From assembly GCF_001648155.1 (NCBI RefSeq), contig NZ_CP015199.1, forward strand, positions 868,001 to 932,000: 64,000 nt of DNA, in the 5' to 3' direction. Position numbers and translations under genes: made by a program. The DNA comes from Chryseobacterium glaciei (GTDB lineage: Bacteria; Bacteroidota; Bacteroidia; Flavobacteriales; Weeksellaceae). Shown here in pieces: positions 34,006 through 59,218 of this stretch. The first letter of the stretch is position 1. Each line of letters opens with the position of its first letter. Under the pieces are notes generated by a model, which was not told the origin of the DNA, did not search any database, and saw nothing but the letters and a program-made list of their open reading frames with translations.

Positions 34006-34335
34006 CTAAGGATAAGGAGCAATCTCCACTTCAAGACCTTCCATTTCTTCAACAATATGCAGCTGGCAACCCAGTCTGCTATTCTCTTTCACATGGTAAG
34101 CTTCCGCAAGCATTGCATCTTCTTCATCGCCCATTTCTACAAGTCCCGAATCACTGATCACGTATACCTGACATGATGCGCACATCGCCATTCCTCCACA
34201 AACTCCGATTGTTCCTTCTTCTGCTAATTCATACGAACGGATGATTTCCATTAAATTCATGGACATATCCGTAGGAGCAACAATATCGTGAGTTACACCG
34301 TCTCTATCGGTGATTTTTATATTAATATCGTTCAT
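34006..34335 (-). CDS. 2Fe-2S ferredoxin
   Basis: A 109-residue adrenodoxin-type ferredoxin. The cluster ligands are visible in VCGGMAMCASCQVYV and the later Cys in SRLGCQLHI. It lies 82 bp downstream of a ferredoxin/flavodoxin NADP reductase-like gene on the same strand, so the two form a reductase-ferredoxin electron chain. The spacer between them is almost entirely a heptamer inverted array. Confidence 0.94.
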   Translation of the reverse strand: MNDINIKITDRDGVTHDIVAPTDMSMNLMEIIRSYELAEEGTIGVCGGMAMCASCQVYVISDSGLVEMGDEEDAMLAEAYHVKENSRLGCQLHIVEEMEGLEVEIAPYP

Positions 34336-34337
34336 TC

Positions 34338-34413
34338 TAGTTGATAGTTGATTGTCTGTAGTTGATGGTAAAAGTTCGTTTTAACTAACAACTAATAACC
34401 GTCAACTGGCAAC
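34338..34413. repeat. Inverted heptamer array 1 (TAGTTGA / TCAACTA)
   Basis: Left half: 7-base units TAGTTGA, TAGTTGA, TTGTCTG, TAGTTGA (34338-34365). Right half: TTAACTA, ACAACTA, ATAACCG, TCAACTG (34381-34408), degenerate complements of the left unit. The array fills the spacer between the reductase stop and the ferredoxin start and would fold into an imperfect hairpin in their shared mRNA. Confidence 0.75.
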
Positions 34414-34417
34414 AAAT

Positions 34418-35473
34418 TTAATCAATTTTTTTCACAACAGCTTTCTCAGCTTCTTTACGGCTTCCGTCAAACCCGTCTACTCCACTTACGGTTGTATATT
34501 TTAAGACGTATTTTTTACCCGGATTTAGTCTGTTGTAAACACTCTGACACATCAACGTTGCCTCGTGGAAACCACAAAGAATCAACTTCAATTTACCCGG
34601 ATAGGTATTGATATCTCCAATTGCATAGATTCCATCGATATTTGTTTGATAATCTAATGCATTGTTTACAACGATTGCGTTTTTCTCAATGTTTAATCCC
34701 CACTTAGAAATATCTCCTAATTTTGGAGTCAATCCGAATAATGGGATGAAATAATCAGTTTCAAGATCATAAGCTTCTTCACCATCTTTCACAATAGTGA
34801 TTGCTTCCACTTTTCCGTCTCCTTTAATTCCTGTAACTTCAGCAGGAGTAATCAATTTGATTTTTCCTTGATTTTTAAGATCCTGTACTTTTTCTACAGA
34901 ATCCAAAGCTCCTCTGAACTCATTTCTTCTGTGAATCAAAGTAACTTCACTTGCAACATTTGATAAGAAAATACTCCAATCAAGTGCAGAATCACCACCT
35001 CCGGCAATCACTACTTTTTTATTTCTGAAATGTTCAGGCTCTTTAACGAAATATTCAAGACCTTTTTCTTCGTAATCAGCTACATTTTCAAAAGTTGGTT
35101 TTCTAGGCTCGAAAGTTCCCAAACCACCTGCAATTGCAATTGCTTTTGCTCTGTGAACAGTTCCTTTGTTGGTAATAACTTCAAACCATTCATCATCAAC
35201 TTTAGAATAAGAAACCGCCGTTTCTCCCAATGTAAAACCAGGTTGAAACTGCTTGATCTGCTCCATTAAATTATCAATTAATTCCCCTGCATTCACCGAA
35301 GGATACCCCGGAATATCGAAAATAGGTTTTTTAGGATAAAGCTCAGTCAATTGGCCTCCAGGTTGAGGAAGTGCATCGATGATGTGACACTTCATTTTTA
35401 ATAAACCTGCTTCAAAAACAGCAAAAAGTCCAGTTGGTCCGGCTCCTATGATCAATATATCAGTAGTTATCAT
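34418..35473 (-). CDS. Ferredoxin/flavodoxin--NADP+ reductase, thioredoxin-reductase type
   Basis: A 351-residue FAD/NADPH oxidoreductase. FAD motif IIGAGPTGLFAVFEAGLL at the N-terminus, second dinucleotide motif VIAGGGDSALDWSIFL, and FAD-binding YAIGDINTYPGK near the C-terminus. There is no CxxC redox pair of true thioredoxin reductase, which marks the FNR branch of the family. It should pass electrons from NADPH to the ferredoxin encoded downstream. Confidence 0.93.
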   Translation of the reverse strand: MITTDILIIGAGPTGLFAVFEAGLLKMKCHIIDALPQPGGQLTELYPKKPIFDIPGYPSVNAGELIDNLMEQIKQFQPGFTLGETAVSYSKVDDEWFEVITNKGTVHRAKAIAIAGGLGTFEPRKPTFENVADYEEKGLEYFVKEPEHFRNKKVVIAGGGDSALDWSIFLSNVASEVTLIHRRNEFRGALDSVEKVQDLKNQGKIKLITPAEVTGIKGDGKVEAITIVKDGEEAYDLETDYFIPLFGLTPKLGDISKWGLNIEKNAIVVNNALDYQTNIDGIYAIGDINTYPGKLKLILCGFHEATLMCQSVYNRLNPGKKYVLKYTTVSGVDGFDGSRKEAEKAVVKKID

Positions 35474-43059: not shown

Positions 43060-43144
43060 AGCTGGAAGCTTGAAGCTGGGAGATGAAAGTTATTGTGTCG
43101 TGAAAAACTCATAATTCATAACTTATAAATCATAACTAATACCA
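43060..43144. repeat. Inverted heptamer array 2 (AGCTGGA / CATAACT)
   Basis: Left units: AGCTGGA, AGCTTGA, AGCTGGG, AGATGAA, AGTTATT (43060-43094). Right units: CATAATT, CATAACT, TATAAAT, CATAACT (43110-43137). The period is exactly 7 on both sides; complementarity between halves is weaker than in the other three arrays. It lies between the divergent PhnA-like and methyltransferase genes. Confidence 0.6.
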
Positions 43145-48298: not shown

Positions 48299-48393
48299 GG
48301 GTTTAGGGTTTAGGGTTTAGGGTTTAGGAAAATAAAATTTAAAACAGTAAGCTAAAAACCTAATTCCTAAGCCCTGAATCCTATTACCTAACA
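48299..48393. repeat. Inverted heptamer array 3, telomere-like (GGGTTTA / CCTnnnn)
   Basis: Four exact GGGTTTA units plus GG (48299-48328) are followed by a 30-base AT-rich centre and then CCTAATT, CCTAAGC, CCTGAAT, CCTATTA, CCTAACA (48359-48393), a degenerate complementary heptamer series. It starts directly after asnB and precedes its terminator. Confidence 0.85.
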
Positions 48394-48405: not shown

Positions 48406-48432
48406 AATCCTGTAGCGATACAGGATTTTCTT
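48406..48432 (+). terminator. Terminator of asnB
   Basis: AATCCTGTA (48406-48414) pairs with TACAGGATT (48419-48427), then TTCTTTT. Confidence 0.75.
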
Positions 48433-48497
48433 TTGAAAAACTAATAATAAATTGATATAATTTAACTGACAATCAAAAATATTATCTAATAAATAAT

Positions 48498-59143: not shown

Positions 59144-59218
59144 ATAAATGATGAATCATCAATGATAAATGATGTGTTACAATATCGTTTATCAACTATA
59201 ATTTATCAATTATCAAAA
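59144..59218. repeat. Inverted heptamer array 4 (ATAAATG / ATCATTT)
   Basis: Left units: ATAAATG, ATGAATC, ATCAATG, ATAAATG, ATGTGTT (59144-59178). Right units: ATCGTTT, ATCAACT, ATAATTT, ATCAATT, ATCAAAA (59184-59218). The period is exactly 7 on both sides with a 5-base centre. It starts 3 bases after the N-subunit stop and fills the intra-operon spacer before the C-subunit. Confidence 0.75.

Follow-up and report, generated by a model that had tools for sequence, protein, structure and literature searches.

Known heptamer repeats and the arrays of the window

The closest described systems are intergenic repeats with a unit of seven nucleotides. Heptameric long simple sequence repeats in prokaryotic intergenic regions were surveyed in 2007 by Mrazek and co-workers, a study represented here by the available portions of PMC4679880 and PMC4692102. 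In the sections of PMC4692102 that were available, the GGGAATC repeats of Xanthomonas and the GGGGA(C/T)T repeats of Nostoc are heptamers located nearer the upstream gene; the Xanthomonas repeats form 70 (Xcc) and 75 (Xac) convergent pairs and seldom lie between divergent genes (8% and 7%, respectively). The available text of PMC4679880 describes TAACTGA direct repeats in Beggiatoaceae, Cyanobacteria, and five Bacteroidetes, as well as further heptamer repeats in spacers of G. forsetii, A. sublithincola, and E. anophelis. One Nostoc spacer in Table 3 of PMC2408588, a paper available in part, contains TTGTCAG repeats, TTGTTAG repeats, and then CCACTGACTACTGAC. Further literature on known repeats is in PMC6344855, also available in part.

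Here, we analyzed the window, i.e., the whole stretch of 64,000 nucleotides at C1:868001-932000 in the genome of Chryseobacterium glaciei (G000). A preliminary description had reported that array 1 consists of TAGTTGA-type heptamers, a short center, and TCAACTA-type heptamers; this was found as described at 34338-34413, and arrays 2 to 4 are also present where they had been placed (Table 1). Array 1 fills the 82-bp gap from the reductase stop codon (34418, minus strand) to the start of the gene previously called "ferredoxin" (34335), and both flanking genes are on the minus strand. We take the upstream product to be a ferredoxin-NADP reductase (FNR) of the thioredoxin-reductase-like type, while the downstream product had no Pfam match at an E value of 0.001. 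The units of array 2 are AGCTGGA-type in the left arm and, read as the reverse complement, AGTTATG-type in the right arm; judged by Bacteroidetes promoter boxes, this array presumably lies upstream of both divergent promoters. Based on Pfam, the functions of the neighboring genes are unrelated between the four loci, and arrays 1 and 4 each separate functionally related genes on the same strand. Among named relatives, the closest one found was C. limigenitum SUR2 (FNR protein identity, 99%; aligned DNA, 92.2% over 19.7 kb); for arrays 3 and 4, the best match in a search of close relatives was 86%.

Table 1. Positions of the arrays and adjacent features in the window, and of two-arm arrays with longer units in other genomes
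Feature	Position	Strand	Description
Array 1, left arm	34338..34371		Degenerate TAGTTGA heptamers, G strand on +; directly upstream of ferredoxin start codon (- strand)
Array 1, right arm	34379..34413		Degenerate TCAACTA heptamers, G strand on -; few nt past reductase stop codon (read on -)
FAD-dependent pyridine nucleotide oxidoreductase	34418..35473	-	ORF; Pfam PF07992; upstream gene of the array 1 pair
Small protein called ferredoxin in the preliminary description	34006..34335	-	ORF; downstream of array 1
Array 2	43060..43144		Divergent spacer between YjdM/PhnA-domain gene and RsmB/F methyltransferase gene
Array 3	48299..48393		GGGTTTA/TAAACCC-type; between asparagine synthase stop codon (48296) and terminator-like hairpin
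Conserved terminator-like hairpin with T run	48406..48434	+	AATCCTGTAGCGATACAGGATTTTCTTTT; separate from array 3
Array 4	59144..59218		TGATAAA/TTTATCA-type; 88-bp gap between two transketolase subunit genes
Facing G-first octamer arrays, G060	Spacers starting L202:13455, L202:1194, L205:14983		GTTGATCG, GTTAATAG, and ATATTGRG types
Facing G-first 11-mer array, G031	Spacer starting L196:13629		GTAAGTGAGTT

The window arrays share with the heptameric repeats of the 2007 survey, as far as these are described in the portions available, the 7-nt unit, tandem copies, intergenic position, and wide taxonomic spread. They differ from them in that the C. glaciei arrays are degenerate, have two facing arms, and follow one orientation rule over many units, i.e., the G-containing strand leads out of the nearest gene (G-out). 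With the Xanthomonas and Nostoc repeats, as portrayed in the accessible sections of PMC4692102, they share the heptamer, the proximity to the upstream gene, the rarity between divergent genes, and convergent pairs; unlike the window arrays, those repeats have one unit type per organism and form G-quadruplexes. The G-quadruplex unit GGGAATC/GGGANTN is absent from the window arrays, since TAGTTGA, AGCTGGA, and TGATAAA lack G tracts and GGGTTTA is another unit. We rejected the G-quadruplex as a common theme because, by inspection, only GGGTTTA (array 3) among the four has four G3 tracts. Like the TAACTGA repeats in the available text of PMC4679880, the window arrays are heptamers in intergenic DNA; the TAACTGA repeats differ in having a single unit, in being located mostly just upstream of start codons in the main genome, and in including one indirect among 169 direct sets. 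No window unit is a rotation or complement of TAACTGA, while TGATAAA and AGTTATG are each one letter off a rotation of it or of its complement. The Nostoc spacer in the accessible part of PMC2408588 reads as having the same facing order as the window arrays. The preliminary description knew of no named element of this kind; that statement has to be withdrawn, because heptamer repeats are in print, including the facing Xanthomonas pairs in the sections of PMC4692102 available. In the open-access literature, to which our search was confined (subscription papers, the 2007 survey included, fall outside it), we found neither an orientation rule that holds regardless of the unit nor a report of units being exchanged at orthologous sites.

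Other classes of element were compared with the arrays as well. At the Rfam gathering score, none of the four arrays had a match in a search of the window; the only Rfam match there was a Flavo-1 RNA (RF01705; 50996-51063, minus strand; 69.3 bits). An intrinsic terminator was rejected by inspection, as the arms are AT-rich without a T run and the terminator-like hairpin after array 3 is separate from it. REP, BIME, and REPIN palindromes, which are accompanied by RAYT transposases, make up one conserved sequence family. The window arrays resemble them in being intergenic, foldable, and near gene ends, but differ in that their units vary between loci. When we compared arms, those of different loci matched at 0.531 on average, and loci of the same class had only the unit in common; in the arms, we thus found no sequence beyond the unit common to the copies, unlike in a REP/MITE-like mobile element. 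Short alleles of the FNR-ferredoxin spacer of 10 to 12 bp exist and are too diverged to define a target-site duplication. A comparison of array 1 with plasmids gave short weak matches in 13 records, and a likeness was rejected.

Period, arms, and placement in the C. glaciei genome

We scored two 28-nt windows per spacer for their lag-k self-match and mutual complementarity and used a cut-off of 1.9. The C. glaciei sample (855,919 unmasked bases) was made up of the window plus 40 stretches, each of 20 kb, in which a simple gene caller of our own delimited 527 spacers of 20 to 600 bp; the two-arm scan covered the 356 spacers of 56 to 300 bp. Arrays 1 to 4 scored 1.93, 1.93, 2.45, and 2.13, respectively, and for each of them, 0 of 400 dinucleotide shuffles of its own spacer reached the score. 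At lag 7, 15 of the 356 spacers had a two-arm match, compared with 1, 0, 2, 3, and 1 at the control lags 5, 6, 8, 9, and 10 and with 1 at lag 7 after one dinucleotide shuffle of every spacer. The preliminary description had named beforehand a shuffle test finding no excess of such spacers as a result that would refute it, and its claim survives this test and the control periods. Extrapolated from 15 arrays in 0.86 Mb, the count suggests approximately 85 two-arm arrays in the 4.87-Mb genome. Among single arrays, there were 27 at lag 7 versus 0 to 14 at lags 4 to 6 and 8 to 11, and heptamers in this sample thus prevail over other unit lengths, as in intergenic heptameric simple sequence repeats. 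This lead of lag 7 is not seen in every sample: Flavobacterium and other loci had 25 single arrays at lag 7 and 24 at lag 6. Single arrays at lag 7 numbered 6 in G057 (8 at lag 9), 1 in G145 (6 at lag 11), and 2 in G084 (3 at each of lags 8, 9, and 10).

All 15 two-arm arrays of the C. glaciei sample are G-first, i.e., they are facing pairs with the G strand first, the arrangement sought as Xanthomonas-type. On the G strand, C accounts for 34 of 840 bases (70 of 896 in 80 further fetched loci). The two arms of a locus share a unit class: their mean best match was 0.705 compared with 0.531 between loci, and 0 of 20,000 permutations were as high, although the figure of 0.705 is partly built in because the scan itself rewards complementary arms. 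Array 2 is the exception. Both of its halves have period 7 and are G-first, as in the identical two-half architecture proposed for all four arrays, but its two arms have different units (AGCTGGA and AGTTATG) and an arm complementarity of 0.50. The halves had also been called complementary, which holds for unit class and not for precise sequence: permuting the order of the four right-arm units left the match unchanged (0.7048 versus 0.7049, P = 0.52), as it did for 18 arrays from the 80 loci (0.686 versus 0.690, P = 0.67). Because unit order is irrelevant, exact pairing is not what is kept. Unit identity at within-arm distances of 1, 2, and 3 was 0.71, 0.72, and 0.74, respectively, and 0.665 across arms; in the 80 loci, it fell with distance (0.73, 0.69, and 0.63). 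For C. glaciei, the indifference to order and the flat identity with distance indicate that the arms resemble draws from one degenerate unit pool rather than exact complements. The arrays do not consist of near-perfect copies of one unit, within-arm unit identity being about 0.71, and the sole perfect arm among the window arrays is the left arm of array 3, over 28 nt. For the 80-loci set, one direct-only array was dropped from the order test, and this array plus two L078 matches were dropped from the unit-identity and stop-permutation tests.

A different heptamer at each locus had been reported, and this is correct for the four window arrays; in the sampled genome, however, a few classes recur, namely the GGAAGnT, GTTGATn, AATTATG/TGATAAA, and GGGTTTA types, with GGAAGnT at 5 of the 15 two-arm loci. 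The relations among units in this genome are not tree-like.

The arrays tend to begin shortly past stop codons. In the 13 tandem cases, the gap from stop codon to array was 0, 1, 1, 1, 1, 3, 4, 4, 6, 7, 8, 10, and 54 nt, so that 12 of 13 start 0 to 10 nt past the upstream stop codon (P = 0.0002 for uniform placement). A preference for tandem spacers is unproven (13 of 250 tandem, 2 of 53 divergent, and 0 of 53 convergent spacers; Fisher P = 0.25). We determined the orientation with single arms included and counted only arrays with a G-C difference of at least 3 (34 of 48 windows in C. glaciei and 28 of 37 in six other Bacteroidota genomes). In C. glaciei, 28 of 34 arrays had the G-rich, C-poor strand running 5' to 3' away from the nearest gene, and so did all 20 skewed arrays located no more than 15 nt from a gene. 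The corresponding counts were 25 of 28 and 12 of 13 in the six other genomes (200 kb each) and 34 of 42 and 11 of 14 in the 80 loci. Because convergent and divergent spacers are included, G-out is not tied to one direction of transcription. In tandem spacers of C. glaciei, the coding strand was G-rich in 9 and C-rich in 5 of the arrays nearer the stop codon versus 0 and 14 of those nearer the next start codon (P = 6e-4); some of the 5 C-rich stop-proximal arrays are right arms in long spacers. The center between the arms is either short or hundreds of bases long. G-out is well illustrated by convergent spacers. In that of L203, GATGAAA-type arrays directly follow both stop codons and enclose a symmetric terminator, while in that of L188, two facing arrays of one unit class lie some 400 nt apart.

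Two side observations concern the surroundings of arrays. The convergent spacers starting at L188:2076 and L196:6242 (G031) contain repeated CGTCATTGCGAGGA... / ...CCTCGCAATGACG enclosed by or adjoining heptamer arrays. One stretch of the C. glaciei genome has an identical set of heptamer arrays twice, about 7.0 kb apart; the adjacent sequence, which we take to be ribosomal RNA, suggests duplicated rRNA operons with arrays beside them.

Spread and turnover in other genomes

At the same cut-off, heptamer two-arm matches in 200-kb samples of six other Bacteroidota genomes numbered 1 (G122), 1 (G084), 0 (G145), 0 (G031), 6 (G060), and 2 (G057). The G-first order, noted for all four window arrays, applies in 15 of 15 arrays in C. 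glaciei but in only 5 of these 10 matches, with 3 of opposite sign and 2 neutral; at least one of the 10 is a direct array, and the two C-first arrays in G060 have units with both G and C. Among the 80 fetched loci, there were 19 two-arm matches (16 G-first, 1 C-first, and 2 neutral), two of which represent one site in two species. Octamer two-arm matches at a score of at least 1.95 numbered 16 over all samples (9 G-first, 5 of opposite sign, and 2 neutral) and were clearest in G060. Together with the 11-mer array in G031, these octamers show that units in the phylum are not always 7 nt long, and the exact period 7 described for the window arrays is correct for these but does not extend to all two-arm arrays of Bacteroidota. 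Outside the phylum, 1 of 56 spacers on a plasmid from the cyanobacterium Chroococcidiopsis thermalis contained a facing G-first pair at 1.9, which was of the GTTGATG type; a Nostoc plasmid had no two-arm heptamer match in 51 spacers at 1.9, and a single-array scan of 50 kb of Escherichia coli gave no array. In Chryseobacterium sp. BGARF1, TTGCTAA heptamers are repeated directly and perfectly over at least 56 nt, with no arm facing them (L077:15169).

Among 30 genomes of the genus, 14 have a spacer of 54 to 86 bp at the array 1 site, and 16 have one of 10 to 12 bp. On a tree of 60 distinct rows (23 with an array, defined as a spacer of at least 45 bp, and 37 short, 4 of the latter not belonging to the main Chryseobacterium group; one short row and 5 duplicates omitted), three changes suffice to explain presence and absence. 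Most simply, this would reflect a single old gain in the genus, with losses in one large clade and in one further species. In array-less FNR-ferredoxin orthologues (e.g., L062 and L072), the 12-bp spacer is taaTTTTGCAGAATTatg, which in our judgment resembles the Bacteroidetes -7 promoter box (TAnnTTTG) and overlaps the reductase stop codon; array-bearing spacers often begin with TAAATTTG.

Array 1 of the window is 56% identical to its C. limigenitum counterpart, compared with 87 to 100% for ten other spacers, while in array 2 about 8 of 172 positions differ by eye; given this mixed picture, we rejected the idea that slow evolution proves function. Of the 24 distinct array 1 orthologues, 16 were chosen without a formal criterion and aligned, and the array columns differed at a median of 0.40 compared with 0.53 for fourfold sites. 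Conservation tracked the heptamer phase, with phase means from 0.94 to 0.53, a pattern that the alignment and the choice of rows may favor; the GTT-phase columns are conserved (phase means, 0.87, 0.71, and 0.94). Median identity of the orthologues was 0.70 (shuffled, 0.61). Foldability is retained despite this divergence: the fold z score, based on dinucleotide shuffles, was negative in 23 of 24 orthologues (mean, -2.09; 11 below -2), while simulated random substitution of 20 to 30% on four spacers gave mean z scores of -1.34 to +0.16 based on mononucleotide shuffles, unlike the orthologue test. RNAalifold found no consensus pair in the 16 of 24 orthologues, the alignment of which is uncertain.

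At the array 4 site, 20 of 27 genomes with adjacent transketolase genes have gaps of 46 to 101 bp and 7 have gaps of 30 to 41 bp, while in 3 more genomes the second transketolase subunit is missing downstream. Some species have the G arm alone, and in the sister species G001 and G018 the unit classes differ (AGTAATA versus ATAAATG). At the array 3 site, a conserved terminator close behind the stop codon is present in four genomes (L266, L276, L278, and L279). In 22 other genomes (L265, L277, and L280 omitted), the first 35 nt past the stop codon have a G content of 0.31 and a C content of 0.06, and the best lag-7 window is at least 0.62, a purely descriptive cut-off, in 16 of 22. At the array 2 site, the relatives L067 and L078 differ by whole AATCCCG units, as judged by eye. 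Because 7-nt events are not overrepresented among the clean indels of orthologous spacers (30, 10, 5, 3, and 4 distinct events of 3, 6, 7, 8, and 14 nt, respectively), unit slippage is visible in examples only. Orthologous sites in relatives are empty or have other units, yet the plan persists where synonymous sites are near saturation. A scan for period-7 facing spacers and a comparison of orthologous spacers had been proposed as checks; the former gave 15 of 356 spacers in C. glaciei and 0 to 6 per sample in the six other genomes, and the latter pointed to gain and loss and revealed unit change. The units change from locus to locus and, at a given site, from species to species, even between sisters, whereas the plan stays the same; in agreement with the earlier view, the arrays do not look like copies of one element.

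Origin of the arrays

The preliminary description concluded that a process makes such arrays. The rival reading, copies of one element, is unsupported, while the process itself is something that we infer. Our preferred reading, to which we assign a probability of roughly 0.4, is that short-unit slippage and fold-back copying in spare spacer DNA make degenerate heptamer repeats with facing arms, probably with no sequence-specific function. The arrays would arise at the DNA level in spacer stretches without other signal, where a polymerase 3' end entering the spacer would realign by one unit on its own product and, via fold-back, on the opposite arm. A strand entering the spacer from either side would then have the same C-poor, G-containing repeat. 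Point mutation would subsequently render the units degenerate, and renewed slippage and arm-to-arm copying would restore period and unit class and could switch the class at a site. Placement would be set by spare room, i.e., just past the stop codon, before the terminator, and outside promoters. Such copying would account for facing arms of one class, the indifference to unit order, a G-out orientation whatever the gene arrangement, unit lengths of both 7 and 8, and the switching of units, and two-arm units of 8 and 11 nt fit slippage better than a 7-nt recognition rule. Against copying, indels lack a 7-nt excess, unit identity in the 80 loci drops with distance, and the G-first order loosens beyond Chryseobacterium. 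Moreover, much of the genus has retained array 1 at its site despite a fourfold-site difference of 0.53, and the foldability and phase conservation of this array could reflect selection for an RNA or protein-binding role instead. Why the outgoing strand is C-poor is predicted by no mechanism in hand.

In E. coli, REP hairpins protect upstream mRNA ends or tune passage into the next gene. A selected RNA element acting likewise, as a loose post-stop hairpin with about four base pairs per heptamer, would fit the start of 12 of 13 tandem arrays within 10 nt of the stop codon, the location of arrays 1 and 4 between functionally related genes, and the fold z scores of the array 1 orthologues, which are more negative than in the simulation on four spacers. 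We nevertheless consider it unlikely, because pairing lacks partner specificity, RNAalifold gave no consensus pair (in an uncertain alignment), two of the 15 two-arm arrays (array 2 and one other) are located between divergent genes, array 1 is missing from 16 of 30 genomes of the genus, and an ordinary terminator-like hairpin comes after array 3. A DNA- or RNA-binding protein that contacts a 3- to 4-nt core once per unit, with symmetry provided by the facing arms, would be consistent with arrays both after genes and between divergent genes and with the conservation of the same heptamer phases per unit across 16 species at array 1, a pattern that the alignment may favor. A repeat-binding protein was also proposed for the TAACTGA repeats in the available part of PMC4679880. 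One protein, however, could hardly read TAGTTGA, GGAAGTT, and AATTATG alike, units vary widely between loci and genomes, and their length is 7, 8, or 11, which makes binding arrays rather improbable.

We regard as distinctly improbable a repair scar, in which both 3' ends at a chromosome break would receive G-rich repeats from a telomerase-like or template-driven enzyme and would then be joined. It would yield facing G-out arms with a variable center, and indeed the G strand enters the spacer 5' to 3' from both sides, the center is short or hundreds of bases long, and the units in C. glaciei have no tree-like relation; yet we know of no such repeat-adding enzyme in bacteria, several unit classes occur inside one genome, array 1 seems to be an old, vertically transmitted feature of the genus, the center can be the genes' own terminator (L203), and single arms exist. 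Broader still, and a long shot, is a telomere-like process in more than one bacterial phylum that would extend gene-leaving 3' ends with C-poor, G-containing 7- to 8-nt repeats and join both ends, the unit coming from a locus- or genome-specific template. Finally, a heptamer holding a stop codon would close all three frames past the real stop. In line with such back-up stop signals, the first 35 nt past the stop codon were stop-rich relative to dinucleotide shuffles at the orthologues of arrays 1, 3, and 4 (z scores of 2.6, 5.2, and 7.7, respectively) and in the 13 tandem arrays of C. glaciei (z score, 2.9, versus -0.4 in 237 array-less tandem spacers). These shuffles alone would point to all-frame stops, but a column permutation that keeps period and composition disfavors them (81 versus 76.6 in C. 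glaciei, 73 versus 76.4 in the 80 loci, and 154 versus 152.7 together), and arrays are found as well in front of genes and between divergent ones; we give this idea hardly any credence.

The abundance of 7-nt repeats in bacterial intergenic DNA is in print, without a settled origin or function. The unit-independent G-out rule and the exchange of units at orthologous sites provide testable handles on this question, namely which polymerase event lies behind the arms, why units have 7 or, at times, 8 nt, and what keeps one strand poor in C. Should the arms act on RNA or replication, operons would commonly contain a component that is missing from their annotation.
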